Shown one piece after another: positions 1 to 41,976 of a DNA stretch of 41,976 bases. Below the pieces are notes generated by a model. It was not told where the DNA came from. It was given only the letters and a program-made list of their open reading frames with translations, and did not search any database. Position 1 is the stretch's first letter. Each line of letters starts with the position of its first letter. Source of the DNA: a virus; IMG/VR virus record IMGVR_UViG_3300015206_000036, positions 1-41,976 of that record; one strand, written 5' to 3'. Position numbers and translations under genes: made by a program.

Positions 1-16
1 CCGATCGAGGTGTCGC
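1..16. repeat. Terminal direct repeat, left copy (circular join)
   Basis: The 16 bases here are identical to 41961-41976. Overlapping the two ends restores a single open frame on the minus strand without any frame change, so this is best read as the overlap of a circular or circularly permuted assembly rather than a biological repeat. Confidence 0.9.
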
Positions 17-392
17 CGTACATGCGAAAGTCGAAAGGGTGATTGAAAAGCTGCGTGATGTCGCTGCAGATCACGACATCGAGATCGATCGAGACGAAGC
101 GCGGGCCGAACATCGATTCAGCTTCGGGGCCGAAGATTTTCAGACGTCGATAGCAGCTCGGATAGTTCGAGCCGTGCGGGCTTGGCACATTGCCGAAGTC
201 TGTCCACAGCTTGATGATGCGAATGCGCGGATCGATCCCGACCGGATCATCGGTCACGCAAACAAGCTCGAAGTCGGCGTGGTAGTGACGCTCGATCATG
301 TTGCGCAGCACGTTGACAGTGTTGGCGTCGAACTTCGATCGATAGTGAATGGGTCCGCGCCACTTCCAACAGATGAAAGTCAGAGGCTGCAT
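1..392 (-). CDS. Putative glycosyltransferase, N-terminal part (continues across the circular join at 41960)
   Basis: This is the first 130 residues of a protein that runs off the left edge and continues at 41960-41636, giving 238 residues in all. It starts at ATG 392 (MQPLTFICWKWRGP) and overlaps the end of the upstream glycosyltransferase gene by 13 bases. Around residues 95-115 the motif FVSIDLDVVICSDITQLF is seen. The DLD is a DxD-type metal and nucleotide-sugar site, set at the end of a hydrophobic strand as in GT-A glycosyltransferases. The protein is likely cytoplasmic and transfers a sugar from a nucleotide donor; the acceptor is unknown. It is the last gene of a sugar/methyl cassette and is followed at once by the head-tail connector gene. 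The family assignment rests on the DxD context only. Confidence 0.8.
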   Translation of the reverse strand, partial: MQPLTFICWKWRGPIHYRSKFDANTVNVLRNMIERHYHADFELVCVTDDPVGIDPRIRIIKLWTDFGNVPSPHGSNYPSCYRRLKIFGPEAESMFGPRFVSIDLDVVICSDITQLFNHPFDFRMYGDTSI

Positions 393-1111
393 TTCAGCAC
401 CGCCTCATACGGAAACTGATAGCGCAAGGGCCTCCATCCTAGCGGCCTGTTCTTGCGCAGCATTTCGAGCTTTTTGTCTTCCGGTGCTTTGCGCTCATAC
501 GTCGTCGTCGATGCGTCAGCGACGATCTCTCGACCGACTCGAATGAGCGGCGATGTGATGAAGCCGACGTTGCGCGCATAGCGCTTCACGCTGTCGCGAA
601 AGTCCGCGTCCGTGCCGTAATAGCCCGCAAGTCGCTCATCGTAGCCGCCGATGCGATCGAGAAACATCGATCGATGCATCAGCCACGAATTGGGGTGCGG
701 CTTGTAGGGCGTCGCGTTCGCTTCGAGATCATGTGCTGTAGTAGCACTCATGCGCTCGAATCGATAGACGTCGCTGTGCCGAATGAAGGGGATCGTGTCG
801 AGCACCGCTTCGAGCGTCGAGCGAGGAATGAAGTGATCGATGTCGGTCAAGAGAAACCAGTCCGCGCGCGCGTGTCGGGCGCACAAATTGCGCGCAGCGT
901 CTTGATTCCAGCGCACATCGACGCTGATTCGATAGATCTGCAGATTCAGCGCTTTCGGCGTGAGCCTTGCGGGCCAGCGCGGCGAGCCGTCATCGCAGAC
1001 GACAAGCTCGATCGACTGCTTCAGCTCGTCAGGTAGGGCTTCTAGCGCGGCTATGTGACGATCGAGAATCGTCGGGTTTTCGTAGTACGCCATCAAGATG
1101 CTCAAGCGCAT
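380..1111 (-). CDS. Family 2-like glycosyltransferase
   Basis: A 243-residue protein with the layout of a GT2 (GT-A fold) glycosyltransferase. The N-terminal strand is MRLSILMAYYENP. The nucleotide-binding region contains LVVCDDGSP (about residues 36-44), and the metal-binding DxD lies in WFLLTDIDHFIP (about 85-96). Downstream is a typical acceptor-side segment with GGYDERLAGYYGTDADFRDS, which resembles the GxDEDF-type region of GT2 enzymes. No membrane segment is evident, so it is probably cytosolic. It starts at ATG 1111, overlaps the upstream gene by 10 bases and the downstream glycosyltransferase by 13 bases, so it is co-translated within the cassette. Donor and acceptor cannot be told from sequence. 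Confidence 0.85.
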   Translation of the reverse strand: MRLSILMAYYENPTILDRHIAALEALPDELKQSIELVVCDDGSPRWPARLTPKALNLQIYRISVDVRWNQDAARNLCARHARADWFLLTDIDHFIPRSTLEAVLDTIPFIRHSDVYRFERMSATTAHDLEANATPYKPHPNSWLMHRSMFLDRIGGYDERLAGYYGTDADFRDSVKRYARNVGFITSPLIRVGREIVADASTTTYERKAPEDKKLEMLRKNRPLGWRPLRYQFPYEAVLKCSL

Positions 1112-1707
1112 ACAGCCCCCAAGCTCGACGGCTCGACGCGCTTGAAGCCTCGAATCGTCGAGTCACGCGAAACGACGAACGTCGCGATCTGCGCCTTGCT
1201 CAGCTGCTCGATCGCCGTCTTGATCTGCGTCGACCACTCGAAAAGCTTGGCCGGTCCACTGCCGCCGCCGCTCTTCCACGGATAGTCGGGGTGCCAATGT
1301 CGCTCGCCGCGCGGCCCGAGCTGCATGTCGAAGCCGACGAGATACAGCTCGCTCGGTCTCAGGTGATAGGCCAAGTTCAGAGCGCAGAAGCCTGAATGCG
1401 TGCCGTTGAGCACGCGCGGATCCTCGCTCAACGTCGTCGACGTGTGATCGTTCTCGTACTGCATGACGTGATCGCAGTCGGTCGCTCGAACGTTCTTCAG
1501 CGTGCCGGTGCGAAGCCAGATCGGCTTAGTCGTTTTCTCGATCACGATGCCCCAGCGATTCTCGCTCCAGAGCCGATCCATCGAGACGCCGATGTCCCAC
1601 TTCGGGGCGTACAGCATCGAATCATTCACCGCGATCACCGTGCCAGGTAATCTGCGCAGATCGACTCTCGACGCCGAGAAGCCCCCGGCGAGTATCGTCG
1701 CGATCAT
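1102..1707 (-). CDS. DUF115-like putative sugar-transfer protein (copy 2)
   Basis: A 201-residue protein. I start it at ATG 1707, which overlaps the stop of the preceding methyltransferase gene as ATGA; residues further upstream in this frame are only a shadow of that gene. It opens with a Rossmann-like strand (MIATILAGGFSASRVDLRRL). The second half has a signature also present in the protein at 3768-4328: an SGFCALNLAYHL helix, then LVGFDMQ, then RHWHPDYP. Phage proteins with a GFDMQ...HWxxxHP signature belong to a DUF115/MptE-like group, some of whose cellular members glycosylate flagellin. The exact reaction is unknown. It lies inside the sugar/methyl cassette and overlaps the next glycosyltransferase by 10 bases. 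Confidence 0.7.
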   Translation of the reverse strand: MIATILAGGFSASRVDLRRLPGTVIAVNDSMLYAPKWDIGVSMDRLWSENRWGIVIEKTTKPIWLRTGTLKNVRATDCDHVMQYENDHTSTTLSEDPRVLNGTHSGFCALNLAYHLRPSELYLVGFDMQLGPRGERHWHPDYPWKSGGGSGPAKLFEWSTQIKTAIEQLSKAQIATFVVSRDSTIRGFKRVEPSSLGAVCA

Positions 1708-2330
1708 TTGAGCCACATCGCGGTCGTGATCGCTTTCGGCCCCGACTGAATCATCTGAAAGTCGAAGTAACGCGCGAGCTGCGCGCGCCAGTCGTCTTTG
1801 CCGCGGCGAAGATCGACGATCAGCACCGTGTGACCCAGCTCGCTCGCATCGACCGCGAGCTGAATGTGCTCGTTCGGCTCGACGTGAAAGCACCACGATT
1901 TGAGACTGATCACAAGATCGTATTTCATCGACACGCAGCGCTTCGGGTCGTTCGCATCGATGTGACTGATGTGATGCAGCGGCACTTCGTTTGCCTTCAG
2001 AAAGTCACGAGCGACGCTCATATTGTTGAACGTCTTGCGATGCAGCTCGACCTCGCTCGAATCTGCTACGCCATCGACGAGCGTGATTCGACAGTCCCCG
2101 CCGTAGTGCGAATTCAGCAGCGCGTCGATGCCGCCCAAGCCGCTGCCGATGTCTAAGATCGCGTCGCACGTCTTTGGCAGAAATGGTCGCATCATCTCGA
2201 ACTCGGCGAAAATCGTGTCGACGTAAAGCGATTCCCAACGCGAGCGATCGGCTTGCATGTCGCTGAGCGCACCGCGCTGATTGAGCAAATACGGAAACGC
2301 CTGATCCGGTATACGCAGTCCTGAAATCAT
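1704..2330 (-). CDS. SAM-dependent methyltransferase
   Basis: A 208-residue class I methyltransferase. The SAM-binding motif I is clear: AILDIGSGLGGIDALL near residues 57-72, followed by an acidic strand end (ITLVDGVAD). The sequence KYDLVISLKSWCFH corresponds to motif IV. The start is ATG 2330, which overlaps the stop of the upstream fusion gene as ATGA. It ends in an ATGA overlap with the DUF115-like gene. In context it probably methylates a sugar or an end group of the glycan made by the neighbouring transferases, but the substrate is inference; a small-molecule or protein substrate is also possible. Confidence 0.85.
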   Translation of the reverse strand: MISGLRIPDQAFPYLLNQRGALSDMQADRSRWESLYVDTIFAEFEMMRPFLPKTCDAILDIGSGLGGIDALLNSHYGGDCRITLVDGVADSSEVELHRKTFNNMSVARDFLKANEVPLHHISHIDANDPKRCVSMKYDLVISLKSWCFHVEPNEHIQLAVDASELGHTVLIVDLRRGKDDWRAQLARYFDFQMIQSGPKAITTAMWLK

Positions 2331-3538
2331 GGCTTGCCAACCTCCGCTCGATATTCTTTTGACGTCTCGAACTCTTCGATGATGATGAAGCCCTGATCTT
2401 TGAGCTTGTCGCGCCACCACTGCGCTGACTCGACGATCAGATGCGCGTTGCGCCCATCAGGCAGCTTCGCGTTCGCCAGCTTGAGCGAGATCACGAAGTA
2501 GGCTCGACGAGCGCTCAAGCTGTAGATGTGATCGATGACGGCGTCGATCTTCTCGGGCTCTACATGCTCAAGCACGTCGGTGCAAACGACTAGATCGCAG
2601 GGCTTCTGCATCGAGCGACGCTCCGGTATGCCGGGGTCATAGCCGCTCACCCTGCGAGGCTTCAGCGCTTCAGCGAGCTTCATCTCGCCGCAGCCGTAAT
2701 CGAGAATCGTGAGCGCGTTCATGTTCGCAGCGATGCCTTCGACGACTTTCGCGTGCTTCGCGCCGTCCGCGCCCCAGCTCTGCGACTTGTGCAGCTGTTC
2801 GAGCTGCGAGCGATACTTCGACGACGCGACATCGTTCTCGCTGTAGCGATACGCCCCGGCGTGACGCATGAACATGCCCATGTGACCGACATCGAGCGCG
2901 TGCGCGCCGCGTCGATGCAAGCGATACGCCAGACAAGTCGCTGCGGTGCCGAGACACATCAACACGCGACAATCGCCCTCGAATGTTTGAATCGCTTTGA
3001 CGGCGTGCTTCTCGATCTCATCGATCTGCGCATACGCGTGCTGACGAGGCCCGATGATCGTCGTGATGCGCCTGGCGCTGCTCAGCATTTCTGCCGTGAG
3101 CGACTTCTGCTCTGGCTTCGACGGATCGTCGCGCTCGTGACCGACGATCAGCACGATGTTCTGATCTTTCCACAGCTGCTCGACCTTGTGCCAATAGGTC
3201 GGCGTGTCGATCCACGGCGCCGAGTCGGGTCGCGTGATAAAGCTCGACGCGTAAACCGTTTGCGGCAGCAGCATCGCGAGGTAGGGATTCTCTGCGTACT
3301 TGAGCCACGACTCTTTGCGCGGCGATTTGAACACGTTCGGAATGCCAACCAAGAAGTCTTGGCTTGGGCTAAGCAGAACGTTCTGCAGCTCAGCTGAGAT
3401 GCCCTTCTCTGCGCGCTGCGATGTGCACGCGCTGCCCGCTGCGCAGCGCCACTCGCCATCGCCGTAGCGTGAGATCGATGCGCCCTCGAGCATCAGCTCG
3501 ATCGTGCGCTCTTCGCTCAAGATTTCGGGGTATTTCAT
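2327..3538 (-). CDS. Bifunctional GT-D fold glycosyltransferase / SAM methyltransferase fusion
   Basis: A 403-residue two-domain protein. The N-terminal half (about residues 1-235) opens with a helix and then SISRYGDGEWRCA. The RYGDGEW motif with its D-G-E (DxE) metal site marks the GT-D glycosyltransferase fold (DUF1792, PF08759). Further on are QNIVLIVG and RVLMCLGTAATCLAYRL, where the second nucleotide-binding strand is expected. The C-terminal half (about 265-403) is a methyltransferase: TILDYGCGEMKLAEAL (motif I), GYDPGI, and CDLVVCTDVLEHVEP (motif IV). One chain could therefore add a sugar and then methylate it. It starts at ATG 3538 in an ATGA overlap with the 78-residue gene and ends in an ATGA overlap with the next methyltransferase. 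Confidence 0.85.
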   Translation of the reverse strand: MKYPEILSEERTIELMLEGASISRYGDGEWRCAAGSACTSQRAEKGISAELQNVLLSPSQDFLVGIPNVFKSPRKESWLKYAENPYLAMLLPQTVYASSFITRPDSAPWIDTPTYWHKVEQLWKDQNIVLIVGHERDDPSKPEQKSLTAEMLSSARRITTIIGPRQHAYAQIDEIEKHAVKAIQTFEGDCRVLMCLGTAATCLAYRLHRRGAHALDVGHMGMFMRHAGAYRYSENDVASSKYRSQLEQLHKSQSWGADGAKHAKVVEGIAANMNALTILDYGCGEMKLAEALKPRRVSGYDPGIPERRSMQKPCDLVVCTDVLEHVEPEKIDAVIDHIYSLSARRAYFVISLKLANAKLPDGRNAHLIVESAQWWRDKLKDQGFIIIEEFETSKEYRAEVGKP

Positions 3539-3771
3539 GAGCGCAGCTGCGGAAGGAACGCGCTCGGAAGCTGCGGCTGCAACGGCTCGCAGAATGTGTG
3601 CTGCTGAAAATAAATGCGCTTCGTTCGAATGACCTCCATCAGATCTTCTTCGCTCAGCTCCCAGCAGCTCGTGACGACGCCGTCGCTCGACAGATGACTC
3701 GGCAGCGGCAAATACTCGGGCTGATCTTTCGCGAAGGTCACATTCGAGCCTTCGAACTGTACGGGTTTCAT
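3535..3771 (-). CDS. Small conserved phage protein in the glycosyltransferase cassette
   Basis: A 78-residue protein beginning MKPVQFEGSNVTFAKDQPEY, with a central VVTSCWELSEEDLMEVIRTK and a conserved-looking tail rich in Pro, Leu and Gln. From memory, similar small proteins occur near head genes of other phages, with no known function. There is no membrane segment and no catalytic motif. ATGA overlaps on both sides tie it to the DUF115-like gene before it and the GT-D/methyltransferase fusion after it, so it is probably made in step with them; a small accessory subunit is possible. Confidence 0.7.
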   Translation of the reverse strand: MKPVQFEGSNVTFAKDQPEYLPLPSHLSSDGVVTSCWELSEEDLMEVIRTKRIYFQQHTFCEPLQPQLPSAFLPQLRS

Positions 3772-4328
3772 AGCTCTACCTCGATGGTTGATTTTCTAAA
3801 ACACTGCAGCGCTGTGTGACGCGAGCAGTTCACGATCTCAAGACCGACGCGCTGCGCATCGCTCGCGAGCTTTGACATCTCGCGCACCCACGTATCGAAG
3901 CGCCCGCCGTTGCCGAGTTTAGCGGGGTGATTTCCGTGCCAGTGAATTTTTCCATTGGTGCGCTGAAAATCGAAGCCGAGCAGCAAGATGCGTTTCGCGC
4001 CCCACATATGAGCGAGACCGATCGCTTGATAGCCTGAGTTGAGCCCCGAATTGATGTGCGCGGTGCTCATCGAGAGACCTGGGGCGGGATTGCCGAACAC
4101 ATAGTCGATCTTGAATTGCGTCGCGATCGGGCGGCTCATCGTCCACATCTCTGAGCCGTGAAAAGCTTTCGCGCATTCGGGGAAGTAGTGAAGCCACCAA
4201 CTGGCGTCGCACGCGTAGAGCACATCGGCCCACGGCGCGATGCGAAAGCTCGTGTTAATTGCGATCGTCTTGCACTTGCCCCTGACGTGATCGACGTCAG
4301 CTTTCGTGAGCGACGGACCGGCTGCGAT
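3768..4328 (-). CDS. DUF115-like putative sugar-transfer protein (copy 1), probable non-AUG start
   Basis: A protein of about 186 residues. The conserved glycine-rich opening (AAGPSLTKADVDHVRG) is typical of the DUF115/MptE-like fold, but there is no ATG, GTG or TTG in frame before it; the first canonical codon is GTG 4223, inside the domain (VLYACDASWW). The ATC at 4328 overlaps the stop of the previous gene as TAATC, in the way TAATG junctions work, so I take it as the likely start. The alternative is a -1 frameshift on an A7 run at 4430-4436 that would fuse it to the upstream protein. The C-terminal half has NSGYQAIGLAHMWGAKRILL, then GFDFQ, then IHWHGNHPAKL, matching the protein at 1102-1707. 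It is probably the first enzyme of the cassette. Confidence 0.75.
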   Translation of the reverse strand: MAAGPSLTKADVDHVRGKCKTIAINTSFRIAPWADVLYACDASWWLHYFPECAKAFHGSEMWTMSRPIATQFKIDYVFGNPAPGLSMSTAHINSGLNSGYQAIGLAHMWGAKRILLLGFDFQRTNGKIHWHGNHPAKLGNGGRFDTWVREMSKLASDAQRVGLEIVNCSRHTALQCFRKSTIEVEL

Positions 4329-4612
4329 TATTGCGACAGTCTCGCCTGACCATCGCCCTGCGGTTCGCCCGACCCGTTCGGCAGCTCTTGCGACAGAGGG
4401 CGCGGGCTTCGTTCTGTCGTCTGATCTTTTTTTAAGGGGGCGCGCTCGATGACTTGTCGATGCGAGGGCTGCATGTCGGGCTTGATCTCTTGCAGCTTCT
4501 TGACGGTGCGATTGACTTCAGCGAAGTACTGCGGCTCGACCGTCACTCGCTCACCGGCTCGAAGAAAGCCGTACTTGCTCTGAAACGTCACGAGCGCTCT
4601 GCAGATCAGCAT
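4328..4612 (-). CDS. Small protein following the major capsid gene
   Basis: A 94-residue protein. ATG 4612 is chosen over TTG 4630 because a GGGAGG Shine-Dalgarno lies 9-10 bases before it. The first 50 residues (MLICRALVTFQSKYGFLRAG) look folded and conserved, while the last 45 are charged and low in complexity (Pro, Gln, Gly, Ser), so probably disordered. Small proteins at this place after HK97-type capsid genes are common and mostly uncharacterised. It sits just after a terminator that follows the capsid gene. An A7 run in its coding sequence (4430-4436) is a possible -1 slippage site into the DUF115-like frame. Confidence 0.75.
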   Translation of the reverse strand: MLICRALVTFQSKYGFLRAGERVTVEPQYFAEVNRTVKKLQEIKPDMQPSHRQVIERAPLKKDQTTERSPRPLSQELPNGSGEPQGDGQARLSQ

Positions 4613-4630: not shown

Positions 4631-4673
4631 TAAAAAGCCCCGGCGCGAAACCCGTGAGAAACGCGCCGAGGCT
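4631..4673 (-). terminator. Rho-independent terminator after the major capsid gene
   Basis: Inverted arms 4636-4647 and 4662-4673 pair over 12 positions with one C/A mismatch (AGCCCCGGCGCG against CGCGCCGAGGCT), with a 14-base loop. On the minus strand the stem is followed by a T-run (4636-4632). It lies 33 bases past the capsid stop and just before the next gene's ribosome site. It would lower transcription of the sugar cassette and tail genes relative to capsid. Confidence 0.85.
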
Positions 4674-4706: not shown

Positions 4707-6077
4707 TCAACCAGTTTCGCCAGCCTTGAATGCGCCGTAAATCAAGGCAGCGGGCCGTGACACTGCGAGCGCGAGACGCTCTTCAGTCAGGATAGTCACC
4801 AAGTTGCGCACAAAATTATCTTGATCTTCAGTCGACAGCAAGATCGACGAGTCTTCGCGATCGAAGATCATCGCAGCGAGCTTGAACGCGCCGACCAAGA
4901 AGTCGCCGCGCTGCATGCTGAAGCACTCCGCGACCGGCAAGCCCCACAGCATGGCCGGGGCCAGCAAGGTGGGCTGACCAATCATGTACCGACCATAGCT
5001 GTCTTTCGTCAGCTGAATGTCGGCCCAATCGCTCGGAGACATCGCAATGCCGGTCGCCGGGTAGTACGCGAGGGTGACCTGCAGCATCGCTCGACGAATC
5101 GTGTCGATCTTCGAGTCGGTGCTCAGATAGCCCTGATTGTACGCAGTCGATTGCGGCACAACGCCGTGCAGATGATGCGCAGCGCCGTCGCCGTATAGCA
5201 GCTGCTGCTCTTCAGCGAGCTTCAGACCGAACGCCAAGCGATTGTCGATCAGCGACTGCAGCATCGGGAAGTCGCCGAGGATTTGCTTCGACGCTTTCAT
5301 CCAATGCGCGATCGTCGCGACAGCGATGTTCTGCTGAACATAGCTCAGATCAGACTGCGGCTTCAGTGAGCCGTCAGAGCCCTGATAGCCAGCGTTGTCC
5401 GTGAACAAATTTTCCTGCACCCAAATGATCGACGACGAAGTCGTGCGTCCCTGCGCGAGCAGATCGCGAAACGTGATCGGCTGAAAGTTCGGCACAATCG
5501 CCTGCGGCAAGTACTCGGGGAACGCACCAGCGCCGCCCACGTTGGCGATCGAAGTGATGTTCTTCACTTCGCGAGTCAGCGATCGCTTCGTCGACCATGC
5601 CTGACTGTTCATCCGACCGCTCTTCTGACCGACCGCTGCGAATGCTTTCGCTTCGTCGCTCTCGATGAAAAGCTCGCCGATCGACTTGTGCTGAGTCGGG
5701 TTCGCTCGGCCGCTTTTCTTCAGCTCCGCGAGCTGCTGCTGCAGATCGAGAATGTTCTCGCTGCTCTTGCGCTCGCGCTCGGTCTGCTCAGCGACGAGCT
5801 TCGCGCCATCCGCGTTCAGTTTCGCGACTGCTTCTTTCGCGCCCTCGCTGACGCGCTTGTTCGCTTCCAGCTCGTCTTGAACGGTCTTGATGACCTCTTT
5901 GACTTTGCCGAAATGTTTTTCCAGCTCAGCGCTGACAGCAGCCTTGAGCTTGACGTTGTCCGCCTCGTCGCACAGCGCGACAGGCCCGTTGGTGAAATAA
6001 CCCTCATTCTCGATCACGGCGGAAGTCGCCATGTCGATCACGCCGCGCGTGATGATGAATCGTTGCATACGGTTCAT
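4707..6077 (-). CDS. Major capsid protein, HK97 family
   Basis: A 456-residue HK97-fold major capsid protein. Residues about 40-125 form a charged coiled-coil delta domain (repeated Glu/Lys/Ala/Gln), normally removed by the prohead protease or acting as scaffold. The mature shell domain follows, with GGAGAFPEYLPQAIVPNFQP, the TSSSIIWVQEN region, and YGDGAAHHLHGVVPQ of the A-domain. The late part has WGLPVAECFSMQRGDFLVGA, RNLVTILTEERLALAVSRP and the closing ALIYG segment. The start at ATG 6077 has AGGAG 9 bases upstream. It sits directly after the protease gene, in the standard portal-protease-capsid order, and is followed by a terminator. Confidence 0.95.
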   Translation of the reverse strand: MNRMQRFIITRGVIDMATSAVIENEGYFTNGPVALCDEADNVKLKAAVSAELEKHFGKVKEVIKTVQDELEANKRVSEGAKEAVAKLNADGAKLVAEQTERERKSSENILDLQQQLAELKKSGRANPTQHKSIGELFIESDEAKAFAAVGQKSGRMNSQAWSTKRSLTREVKNITSIANVGGAGAFPEYLPQAIVPNFQPITFRDLLAQGRTTSSSIIWVQENLFTDNAGYQGSDGSLKPQSDLSYVQQNIAVATIAHWMKASKQILGDFPMLQSLIDNRLAFGLKLAEEQQLLYGDGAAHHLHGVVPQSTAYNQGYLSTDSKIDTIRRAMLQVTLAYYPATGIAMSPSDWADIQLTKDSYGRYMIGQPTLLAPAMLWGLPVAECFSMQRGDFLVGAFKLAAMIFDREDSSILLSTEDQDNFVRNLVTILTEERLALAVSRPAALIYGAFKAGETG

Positions 6078-10363: not shown

Positions 10364-11221
10364 TCAAGTTATCGACATGCCGTAGTCGTCGAATCCTTCC
10401 GGAAGTGTGAGCCCTTCGACGCGCAGCAGCTTGTTCGAGCGGAACGGGCGATAGTCGACGTGATGATGCGGACGGCCGAATTTGTGCACCAGCTCGCTGA
10501 CATCGGGGTGCAGCCTAACTTGCATCAAGCTCTTCGCGAGCGTGCCGTCTTTCGCGTAAAAGTCCTCGGTGTTTCCGCCCTTCAGCGTCTGCGTCTCGAC
10601 CTTGCCCTGCAGAAACGCGTTGAACTGCACCGTGCACCATCCCGCTTTGAGCATCTGCAGCGAGAGATCGGTGTCTTCGTTGTAGCGACCGCGCCAGCGA
10701 AAGGGCACGTCGTTGCGAATCAGATTGCAGCTGTAGATGCGCGTGTTCGGCACGAACGGCGGCAGCGACTGCTTGCGCTTCGCGAAGAAGGTGTAGTTCG
10801 GCCCCGCCATCGAGACATTTTTGTAGCGCAGGCAGAAATCTTCCATCGCTTTGAAGATCGTGCCAGTGCTCACGCGAATTTTCAGATTGCGATTTAGCCT
10901 GAAGAAGCCCTTGATGTTGTCGTCCATGACCCAGTGCCATGCGAATCCAGCGCGCAACGCGTGATCCGAAGCAAAATTGCGCGCAGGTCCAGGCCCTTTG
11001 CTCTTCGAGTCGCCTAGATCGTCGCATGTCGAGTACTCCTGCTGAAAGAGTTTGTCGAGAACGAGCAGCCTCGATGTATCGATCACGCTCGCATAATCAT
11101 CGTACTGCTGCGCCTCGACGATCACGAAGTACTCGACGTCCATCGCTTCGAGCGTCTTCACGGTCAAGCGCGAATCGTGCCGACCCTTCGAGGGGATGTA
11201 GATCGGGAAACGCGGATTCAT
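10364..11221 (-). CDS. TAGT/GREB1-like glycosyltransferase (candidate DNA-base glycosyltransferase)
   Basis: A 285-residue protein that I recognise as resembling the TET-associated glycosyltransferase (TAGT) group. It opens PIYIPSKGRHDSRLTVK, continues YFVIVEAQQYDDYA (strand and donor site region), has GPGPARNFASDHAL, and then WHWVMDDNIKGFFRLNRN, where the DD acts as the metal-binding acidic pair. Later YNEDTDLSLQML resembles the acceptor-side acidic motif of GT-A enzymes. In other phages such enzymes are predicted or shown to add sugar to oxidised or hydroxymethylated pyrimidines. No TET or hydroxymethylase gene is visible here, so the acceptor is open. It lies just upstream of terS, with ATGA coupling to the small gene before it. 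Confidence 0.75.
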   Translation of the reverse strand: MNPRFPIYIPSKGRHDSRLTVKTLEAMDVEYFVIVEAQQYDDYASVIDTSRLLVLDKLFQQEYSTCDDLGDSKSKGPGPARNFASDHALRAGFAWHWVMDDNIKGFFRLNRNLKIRVSTGTIFKAMEDFCLRYKNVSMAGPNYTFFAKRKQSLPPFVPNTRIYSCNLIRNDVPFRWRGRYNEDTDLSLQMLKAGWCTVQFNAFLQGKVETQTLKGGNTEDFYAKDGTLAKSLMQVRLHPDVSELVHKFGRPHHHVDYRPFRSNKLLRVEGLTLPEGFDDYGMSIT

Positions 11222-24905: not shown

Positions 24906-24980
24906 GATTTCAGCCTGGTGCGCGTCGCAGCGCGCAAATTGGGTGCAATCTCGCATCATCAAACCCGTAAGAGACAACAC

Positions 24981-26072
24981 ATGAAAACCGGAAAAACACT
25001 GAACGAACTCGCTGCTGAAATCACTCGCCGCGCCGAAGCGAAGAAAGACTTCATCGCCCCTGTCGGCAAGCTCGCGATGGCAGTCGTGAACGACGCGCCG
25101 TCGCTGATCGTAGGCGATAACGATGCCTTCGCGATCAACGCGAACGCGCATGGTCAGATCGCTGAATACGCGGGCATCCCCTCGAAGTACTACAAGCGCA
25201 TGCAGAGCGAAGACCCGCAGCTGCTCGCGACGAACGTCAATCGCTGGCTGCACGACATCGCGTCGAAAGACGACAAGCGCATGGTGCGCACCCTCGACGG
25301 CCAGGTCCGCGCGCTCGTCAGCGATCGCTATCGCAAGATCGAGAACGAAGACATCGCCGAGACCGTGCTGCCGGTGCTGATGGATCGCGACATGATCATC
25401 ATGAGCGCTGACATCACCGAGACGCGCATGTACCTGAAAGCGGTCGATCGCTCGATCGAGAAGAACATCCCGAAGGGCTTCTCGATGGGTGATGGCTCGC
25501 ATCAGATCTTCGACTGCTTGTCCCCCGCGATCATCGTCGGCAATAGCGAGACCGGCAACGGTTCGTACTTCGTCGAGACCGGCGTCTTCACGCGCGCTTG
25601 CACGAATCTCGCGCTCTTCGGCGCGAACATGCGCCGCAGTCACTTGGGCGTGCGAGCCGAGCACAGCGATGAGGTGTATGCGCTGCTGACGAATCAGACG
25701 CTGAAAGTGAGCGACGCTGCGCTGATGGGCCAGTTGCGCGACATCATCGCCGGAACCCTGACCGTCGATCGCTTCGACAGGACCGTCGAGCAGCTGCAGC
25801 GCGCGGCTGACGACAAGCTCGATGCTGACGTCGTGAAGATCGTCGAGCAAGTCGGTCGCAAGTTCAGCGTGACCGAGGGCGAGCAGAAGGGCATTCTGCA
25901 GCGCTTGATCGAAGGGGCTGATCTCTCGCGCTACGGTCTGCACAGCGCGATCACTCGATTCTCAGCCGACGTCGATAACTACGATCGAGCGACTGAGCTT
26001 GAGCGCATGGGCGGGGACGTCGTGCAGCTGCCGCAAGGCGAGTGGAAGCAGCTTCTGAAGCTCGCGGCGTAG
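24981..26072 (+). CDS. DUF932 phage/plasmid-like protein
   Basis: A 363-residue protein of the DUF932 family (PF06067). Recognisable parts are the N-terminal GDNDAFAINANAHGQIAEYA, then GIPSKYYKRM. The core has VRTLDGQVRALVSDRYRKIE and ENEDIAETVLPVLMDRDMII, and later IFDCLSPAIIVGNSETGNGS and VETGVFTRACTNLALFGANM. The family is found on phages and plasmids, and its function is not established. The start is ATG 24981 with a weak AAGAGA site. It is the largest gene of the early block and is followed by a GC hairpin, so it may be independently tuned. Confidence 0.92.
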   Translation: MKTGKTLNELAAEITRRAEAKKDFIAPVGKLAMAVVNDAPSLIVGDNDAFAINANAHGQIAEYAGIPSKYYKRMQSEDPQLLATNVNRWLHDIASKDDKRMVRTLDGQVRALVSDRYRKIENEDIAETVLPVLMDRDMIIMSADITETRMYLKAVDRSIEKNIPKGFSMGDGSHQIFDCLSPAIIVGNSETGNGSYFVETGVFTRACTNLALFGANMRRSHLGVRAEHSDEVYALLTNQTLKVSDAALMGQLRDIIAGTLTVDRFDRTVEQLQRAADDKLDADVVKIVEQVGRKFSVTEGEQKGILQRLIEGADLSRYGLHSAITRFSADVDNYDRATELERMGGDVVQLPQGEWKQLLKLAA

Positions 26073-40931: not shown

Positions 40932-41136
40932 TAGCTGCTCCGACCTGGCGCAGAGCTGAAGAAGGTTCTTCAGATGCGCCAGGCCCACCCGAAGGTGGTA
41001 GCTGCTTCGCGACGTTGTATGCAGTACGTTGCTTTCGCGCTTCGAGCGCGTTGTTCAGAATCTCAAGTCGCCTCGCTAAAGACGGCGCGACTCGTGCAAT
41101 TTGCTGTCGCTTCTTCGCGCAGTAGCTGCAGCTCAT
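40921..41136 (-). CDS. Small structural-cluster protein with CxxC
   Basis: A 71-residue protein from ATG 41136, ATGA overlap with the connector gene. It begins MSCSYCAKKRQQIARVAPSL with one CxxC pair, then a basic helix, and ends in a Gly/Pro/Ser-rich tail. A longer frame upstream is a shadow of the connector. Function unknown; the position between connector and closure genes suggests a head role or a small DNA-binding protein. Confidence 0.65.
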   Translation of the reverse strand: MSCSYCAKKRQQIARVAPSLARRLEILNNALEARKQRTAYNVAKQLPPSGGPGASEEPSSALRQVGAASGE

Positions 41137-41639
41137 ACGCCGAGCGCGATTCGATACGGCTGCAGCAACGCGTCGCGCGCCTGCGTCAGCATCTGATAGT
41201 TCGCGACGTTGCGATCGAACATGATTTCGACCTGCAGCAAGATCGCTTGTCGAACATCGCGCCGCAGCGGCTTGCTCTGATCCTGCATCGCGGGGTTTGC
41301 TGCGAGAAACGCGGCCCAATACGCCTGCGTCTGATCGCCGCCCCATTGATCGACGCCGATCGTCCAGTCGAATGTCGAGCCCCACTGCGATGAAGTCGTC
41401 GCGATGAAGTCGAAGTCGATCGACGCCGGTGAGTCTTTCGGATCGGGCAGCGGAACCGCCGATGAGTCAGTCGGCGAATTCAGCTCAAGCAGCTCGCCGA
41501 GAGATCGCTGCGTGTAGTTCTCGGCGTAATCGACAGCGCCGTCGATGCAGTCTTGAACGCGCACGTCATGAACGGTCAAGCCCTGATCGATCGACAGGTG
41601 CTCTTTCGCTTGCGTGAGAGTGACAAAACCTTGGCTCAT
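41133..41639 (-). CDS. Head-tail connector protein (gp6-like)
   Basis: A 168-residue connector from ATG 41639, in an ATGA overlap with the glycosyltransferase gene. It begins MSQGFVTLTQAKEHLSIDQG, then VQDCIDGAVDYAENYTQRSL, which is the usual helix pattern of gp6-type connector proteins (PF05135). It ends with PLRRDVRQAILLQVEIMFDR. It forms the ring below the portal. The direct link to the sugar cassette is unusual. Confidence 0.9.
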   Translation of the reverse strand: MSQGFVTLTQAKEHLSIDQGLTVHDVRVQDCIDGAVDYAENYTQRSLGELLELNSPTDSSAVPLPDPKDSPASIDFDFIATTSSQWGSTFDWTIGVDQWGGDQTQAYWAAFLAANPAMQDQSKPLRRDVRQAILLQVEIMFDRNVANYQMLTQARDALLQPYRIALGV

Positions 41640-41976
41640 CGGTAGTGCTCCGCGATCCAGCTGTGCTTCGCGCGCATCGCTGGGGTCCAGGGGTCGTGCG
41701 CGCCGTGAAGAATGACCATTTTCGCGTCGCTCGGCAAGTGCCCACCCCTCGGCTGTATCTCATTTCTGTAACTATAAACGCCGTCTTTGCGCGTGAACTT
41801 CTGCTCTTTGGGGCCGAGCACGACTGCGATCCAGCCTTGATCGCTGCCGATGTAGCCCTTCTGCTTCGACATGATGCCAGCCGTTTGCGGGTTGAATCTC
41901 GCGTAGACCTGCGGTCGCGCGTTCGCTTTCAGCTGAATGATCGAGCCGTTGTACGGGGTGCCGATCGAGGTGTCGC
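41636..41976 (-). CDS. Putative glycosyltransferase, C-terminal part (continues from 392 across the circular join)
   Basis: This is the remainder of the protein that starts at 392; bases 41961-41976 repeat 1-16, so unique coding ends at 41960. It carries TPYNGSIIQLKANARPQVYA, then GYIGSDQGWIAVVLGPKEQ and MVILHGAHDPWTPAMRAKHS. The SDQGWIA segment is the acceptor-side Asp-Gln motif of GT-A sugar transferases, and the following HG-x-HDPW fits their final metal-binding His. The start ATG 41872 inside this part should not be used, since the real start is at 392. Confidence 0.8.
   Translation of the reverse strand, partial: DTSIGTPYNGSIIQLKANARPQVYARFNPQTAGIMSKQKGYIGSDQGWIAVVLGPKEQKFTRKDGVYSYRNEIQPRGGHLPSDAKMVILHGAHDPWTPAMRAKHSWIAEHYR
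41961..41976. repeat. Terminal direct repeat, right copy (circular join)
   Basis: Identical to 1-16. Joining 41960 to base 1 (or 41976 to 17) keeps the glycosyltransferase frame open. Confidence 0.9.

Follow-up and report, generated by a model that had tools for sequence, protein, structure and literature searches.

We analyzed the 41,976-nt virus record IMGVR_UViG_3300015206_000036 over its full length (hereafter the window, whose coordinates are used unless another locus is named), focusing on a sugar/methyl-transfer cassette on its minus strand. Between the genes of the major capsid protein (MCP) and of the head-tail connector Ad1 lie the seven overlapping genes of this cassette, G1 to G7, and a gene for a small post-capsid protein, sp, in the order MCP, sp, G1-G7, Ad1. 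A first-pass annotation, made from the sequence alone, had placed seven co-translated genes here; their families and order are borne out by Pfam and PHROG matches, but an eighth gene, sp (4612-4328), had been missed. The ATG of sp at 4612 is preceded by a good ribosome-binding site (GGGAGG), while in the G1 frame the nucleotide-binding-type motif TVAIIAAGPSL lies upstream of the first ATG, GTG or TTG. Because none of these codons precedes GPSL, G1 is not an ordinary co-translated gene, and that part of the annotation does not hold for it. Instead, the open frame of G1 runs back into sp, where it is the -1 frame, as far as an in-register slippery heptamer, A_AAA_AAA. A slip at 4433-4427 would give a predicted sp-G1 fusion of 281 aa (62 + 219), with the junction APLKK|RSDDR. 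As own starts for G1 we tried the ATA at 4331 and the GTG at 4223, and rejected both because they would cut into or remove the strand of the putative nucleotide site. Given strong support from the sequence comparisons below, a programmed -1 frameshift very probably joins sp to G1. That slippage takes place at this heptamer, and at what rate, we infer from the sequence.

To test the conservation of this arrangement, relatives were gathered by their capsid protein and by alignment of G1 (viral contigs and bacterial genomes), and annotated phages were added. Among them were 75 loci without a nearby G1 start, a raw count in which a few contigs appear twice and the loci are related, not independent; clustering at 70% identity, which gave 53 clusters, reduces this kinship and does not remove it. 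A standard start codon was absent throughout the open G1 frame in 59 of the 75 loci, and 29 of those 59 also lacked near-cognate starts before a conserved W. An sp profile detected sp in 58 loci without a nearby G1 start, with G1 in the -1 frame in 57 of them. Heptamers of the form X_XXY_YYZ were present in register in 48 of the 75 loci, compared with 5.3 ± 2.3 expected after shuffling zero-frame codons (200 shuffles, maximum 14 of 75), and in only one of the 27 loci where G1 has its own start, which is the chance level. When the three registers were compared across the 53 clusters, counting only those heptamers whose Y is A or T, the in-register frame scored 36 versus 3 and 5 in the other two, and the values were 32, 2 and 1 once A-runs were excluded. 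The heptamers themselves vary (GGGAAAA, CCCTTTG, AAAAAAA, GGGAAAC, CCCAAAA, CCCTTTA, CCCAAAG, CCCTTTC and TTTTTTG) and encode differing residues at the same place, so it is the slipperiness that appears to be kept rather than the residues.

Individual loci add to this picture. In Tetraselmis virus S20 the heptamer C_CCT_TTG marks the very point where the -1 frame opens, and this heptamer, in register and with no start, is found in two MCP-adjacent G1 copies that stand outside the count (L161 and L176). Locus L154 is a natural in-frame sp-G1 fusion: sp and G1 form one continuous open reading frame (ORF) directly behind the MCP gene (3821-4612 of L154), in which an internal ATG is also present. 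G1 copies distant from the MCP gene, such as those of P1, PAJU2 and Eowyn, usually have their own start. The linker from heptamer to motif shows little conservation in either frame (0.28 vs 0.31), and conservation favors the -1 frame only over its last 15 codons (0.54 vs 0.36). An assembly error behind the split frame was also considered and rejected, since the split recurs, with different heptamers, in contigs of independent origin, in completed genomes of phages and in prophages.

Two further patterns were seen in the collection. Six loci without a canonical heptamer (L171, L175, L177, L183, L188 and L190) carry C_CCT_TCN at the heptamer position, a pattern recognized after the fact, where perhaps only the P-site tRNA slips. 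Besides, tandem or second G1-family copies occur in L161, L175, L176, L153, L156 and L169.

The protein that would carry the extension is small. Its AlphaFold2 (AF2) model comprises a folded N-domain of about 42 aa and a disordered tail, and the slippery heptamer falls within the tail. PHROG 2616 was assigned to sp in 16 of 26 relatives. The closest fold is that of Bacillus subtilis YqbF (probability 0.98 with an E-value of 0.21, thus a lead only), a skin prophage protein encoded behind a capsid gene there; searching PDB sequences with the sp profile gave no matches. In the related phage mEp235, which lacks the cassette, capsid and Ad1 are separated by a related small protein (PHROG 2616, DUF7210) and by no enzyme, which agrees with the first-pass statement that phages lacking the cassette run from capsid to connector. 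An intrinsic-terminator-like hairpin separates the MCP gene from sp, and a similar one recurs in 20 of 49 relatives, with mEp235 having it annotated; such a hairpin would lower the expression of all genes downstream.

As for G1 itself, its match to PF01973 (E-value of 1.3e-7, 32.0 bits) falls just under the Pfam cut-off of 34.6, and this family matches 50 of the 57 G1 members at E-values of at most 0.01. The AF2 model is confident (predicted local distance difference test score of 93.8) and has an alpha/beta fold, not an immunoglobulin-like (Ig-like) one. The nearest solved folds are the CMP-sugar sialyltransferase ST8SiaIII (probability 0.98) and thiamine pyrophosphokinase (TPK, 0.97, of the TPK/MptE group), both weak with E-values of 3e-3 or higher, and a search of PDB sequences with the G1 profile returned only weak, RelA-type chance matches. 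Across the 57 diverse members the conserved residues include GPS, N43, D53, D59, H147-W-H149 and H152, and the retention of this putative nucleotide site and of HWH..H suggests catalysis. For ORF010, the G1 homologue of PAJU2, the GenBank record gives ‘structural protein’, a label that concerns the G1 domain; it speaks for a virion-directed enzyme and equally for a displayed head appendage (see below).

The remaining enzymes and their neighbors are listed in Table 1. The start codons of the cassette overlap the preceding stops, in most cases as ATGA, which makes translational coupling plausible, and to this extent the co-translation claimed at first stands. The order G3-G4-G5-G6-G7 between G1 and Ad1 is kept in about 25 unique contigs; other lineages carry G1 alone or different gene sets, and in D3, L121, L143, L147, L149 and L151 only sp/G1 lies between capsid and connector. 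G2, initially described as a small partner, is present as an ORF (3771-3535 in the window) but has no firm tie to the cassette, since its homologues in relatives lie at other places (L003, 7-138; L005, 2632-2853; L048, 319-480). The GT-D N-half of G3 resembles the SP_1767 family (TIGR03728), below the cut-off of that family. SP_1767-type enzymes extend glycans on streptococcal serine-rich proteins, and the likeness would thus fit protein glycosylation.

The last enzyme, G7, is split by the ends of the record, which share an exact 16-bp terminal repeat, CCGATCGAGGTGTCGC, at 1-16 and 41961-41976. Collapsing one copy joins the open frames 392..1 and 41960..41636 (minus strand) into a single G7 of 238 aa that aligns over almost its entire length with relatives at 50-65% identity. 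The shared repeat and the restored frame support the circular join that the first-pass annotation had G7 cross, and the genome, of 41,960 bp after the collapse, is either circular or joined at its termini. The GC content of the cassette matches that of the remainder of the genome (58.6% vs 58.2%), so the set is not a recent foreign insert. Among the larger ORFs scanned in the window we found no nucleotide-sugar synthesis genes, as had been stated. Elsewhere in the window, an ORF at 24918-26072 (plus strand), downstream of a RecT-like annealing protein and an exonuclease, has a weak DUF932 match (phrog_1362).

Table 1. Features of the capsid-connector region, in coordinates of the window
Feature	Position	Strand	Remarks
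MCP, HK97-type major capsid protein	4707..6077	-	PF05065, phrog_10
Intrinsic-terminator-like hairpin	4635..4653	-	between MCP gene and sp
sp, small post-capsid protein, 94 aa	4328..4612	-	ATG at 4612, GGGAGG upstream
Slippery heptamer A_AAA_AAA, candidate -1 frameshift site	4427..4433	-	TTA AAA AAA GAT in the sp frame
G1, predicted DUF115/MptE-like, sialyltransferase-like glycosyltransferase	3768..4427	-	-1 frame of sp; PF01973, phrog_4603
G2, small protein	3535..3771	-	ATGA-coupled
G3, GT-D glycosyltransferase (PF08759) fused to Methyltransf_23	2327..3538	-	Pfam
G4, predicted S-adenosylmethionine (SAM) methyltransferase	1704..2330	-	weak Pfam match; kept in cassette
G5, second DUF115-like glycosyltransferase	1102..1706	-	own ATG; phrog_4603 (1.8e-20), phrog_2111
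G6, GT2 glycosyltransferase	380..1111	-	PF10111, PF00535
G7, 5' part, phrog_1962 glycosyltransferase	1..392	-	
G7, 3' part, phrog_1962 glycosyltransferase	41636..41960	-	joins 392-1 after repeat collapse
Ad1, head-tail connector	41133..41639	-	ATGA-coupled to G7; phrog_40

Comparable arrangements exist in phages already described. Pseudomonas phage D3, as well as phi1 and vB_Pae_U7, has the MCP, a small protein, a G1 homologue (41% identity) and Ad1, with G1 in the -1 frame and C_CCA_AAG in register (in D3, L083, 2322-3040). D3 differs in lacking G3-G7, with another protein and a methyltransferase further on, and its two genes are annotated separately as orf6.5 and orf7, the start of orf7 having been placed after the conserved motif. 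A GTG start upstream is possible in D3. In phi1 the G1 stretch carries no annotation at all. We consider that orf6.5 and orf7 of D3 are probably one frameshift pair. In coliphage P1, the pmgO-pmgP-ppp-pmgQ genes (hdmB-hdmC-ppp-hdmD in P7) comprise a member of the G1 family (pmgO) and counterparts of G5 (pmgP, phrog_2111) and G7 (pmgQ, phrog_1962), so that G1, G5 and G7 match phrog_4603, 2111 and 1962 in the P1 order, with other genes interspersed. Unlike G1, pmgO has its own ATG, does not lie behind a capsid gene and has no sp. Knock-downs and deletions in P1 found pmgO, pmgP and pmgQ dispensable for plaque formation (PMC10695390), and the text of the paper on the P1 virion proteome (PMC9024508) mentions none of the three.

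The frameshift extensions of virion proteins in A2, A118/A500 and T3/T7 (PMC5009743) likewise give a minor share of the copies of a head protein an additional C-terminal domain, mainly an Ig-like one; here the extension would be glycosyltransferase-like, and the carrier is the small post-capsid protein, a putative virion component. G1 has the GPSL motif and the PF01973 profile match in common with DUF115/MptE-like proteins and sialyltransferases, and it resembles the ST8SiaIII fold weakly. We know of no frameshift coupling in mycobacteriophage virion glycosylation. For mycobacteriophage Maravista, phage glycosyltransferases are proposed to act on capsid proteins (PMC11256854), the enzymes there being other ones. 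In the open-licence papers searched, preprints aside, there was no report of a frameshift fusing a glycosyltransferase to a post-capsid protein. Head-protein frameshift extensions and phage glycosyltransferases are thus each known separately, and we found no report of their combination.

According to these results, we propose that the cassette would be a late glycan-building set attached to the head operon. Most ribosomes would make sp alone, while a minority would slip at A_AAA_AAA (4433-4427) and produce low levels of the 281-aa sp-G1, whose sp domain may dock G1 on the growing head or on another assembly partner. G1 and then the coupled G3-G7 would attach a short glycan to a virion protein and methylate it, the host supplying the sugar donors. 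What the sequence itself supports is the order of the genes, the lack of a G1 start, and the conservation of the -1 register and of slippery sites; docking by sp, catalysis by G1 and the virion as acceptor are what we infer. Of the two options first envisaged, virion or host surface, a late pathway of glycan and methyl transfer linked to the virion fits the conserved position, the order kept in about 25 contigs, the homology to pmgO, pmgP and pmgQ and the frameshift link to a post-capsid protein, and the first version is in this respect partly supported. It had missed both the frameshift and sp. A virion-directed role for the cassette is what we lean towards, by a slight preference, and the complete scheme, in which the frameshifted sp-G1 starts head-directed glycan building, seems to us likewise a little better than evenly balanced. 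Several observations weigh against it. Canonical heptamers are absent from 17 of the 53 clusters, one of the 58 loci with sp (L146, the same contig as L012) has G1 in the +1 register, and D3 has a possible GTG in the G1 frame, 22 codons upstream of the motif. RNA structure downstream of the site exceeds that of a control region by little and gives no clear signal (mean z of -0.76 vs -0.35; n = 54), and the P1 homologue of G1 is both dispensable and unnamed in the text of the virion proteome paper.

One could argue that no programmed frameshift is needed, and that ribosomes start G1 independently, at a non-standard codon or by reinitiating close to the sp stop, which is overlapped by the ATA at 4331. 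The GTG of D3 and the clusters without a canonical heptamer would suit this explanation. Starting at the ATA, though, would cost G1 the greater part of its first strand as well as the conserved GRWxGETV stretch, and this explanation leaves unaccounted for the 29 loci devoid even of near-cognate starts before the W, the register bias of the heptamers and the continuous ORF of L154, so we hold it to be improbable. If the fusion is real, its G1 domain might be displayed on the head, as an appendage for binding or decorating glycans rather than as an assembly-time enzyme, like the surface-exposed Ig-like domains that frameshifting is known to add to virion proteins (PMC5009743). The phages that carry sp/G1 with no other enzyme (D3, L121, L143, L147, L149 and L151) would be in keeping with such an appendage, but the nucleotide-site and HWH..H residues retained in the 57 members speak for catalysis, and relatives with their own start (P1, PAJU2 and Eowyn) adjoin methyltransferases or glycosyltransferases. 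We regard a displayed appendage as unlikely.

The cassette could also alter a glycan of the host surface, either in lysogens or at a late stage of infection, and mask a receptor, the link to sp setting expression only. An enzyme fused to a post-capsid protein across dozens of lineages is hard to explain if it acts as a soluble one, the capsid-connector position is conserved, and no membrane or O-antigen conversion gene was recognized among the families found; this role is accordingly doubtful in our eyes, even though the P1 genes are dispensable for plaques and the lack of nucleotide-sugar synthesis genes among the scanned ORFs points to host donors. Modification of the phage DNA with sugar-decorated, hypermodified bases is brought to mind by a TET-associated glycosyltransferase, TAGT (PF20691, 3e-44), which belongs to a family of DNA-base glycosyltransferases and is encoded beside the terminase small subunit (10364-11221, minus strand). 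This gene is far from the cassette, a search of the contig for Tet_JBP found none, and the P1 and D3 homologues sit among morphogenesis genes with no recognized DNA-modification module adjoining, which makes this reading very improbable.

Returning to the frameshifted fusion, its layout recurs in dozens of phage lineages, among them the cultured Pseudomonas phages D3 and Psp6 (the latter from P. putida) and the cultured Tetraselmis virus S20, as well as in prophages that cultured Proteobacteria carry; existing annotation either breaks the pair up into separate hypothetical genes or overlooks it. We put forward tentatively, at slightly less than an even chance, that a widespread and hitherto unreported -1 frameshift adds a glycosyltransferase to a minority of a small, capsid-associated protein and places it on assembling heads, so that virions would be glycosylated in place. 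If the fusion is made, it would explain the low dose of a virion-directed enzyme and its placement at the target, and a single heptamer would offer a direct handle on whether phage heads carry glycans and on the role these may have.

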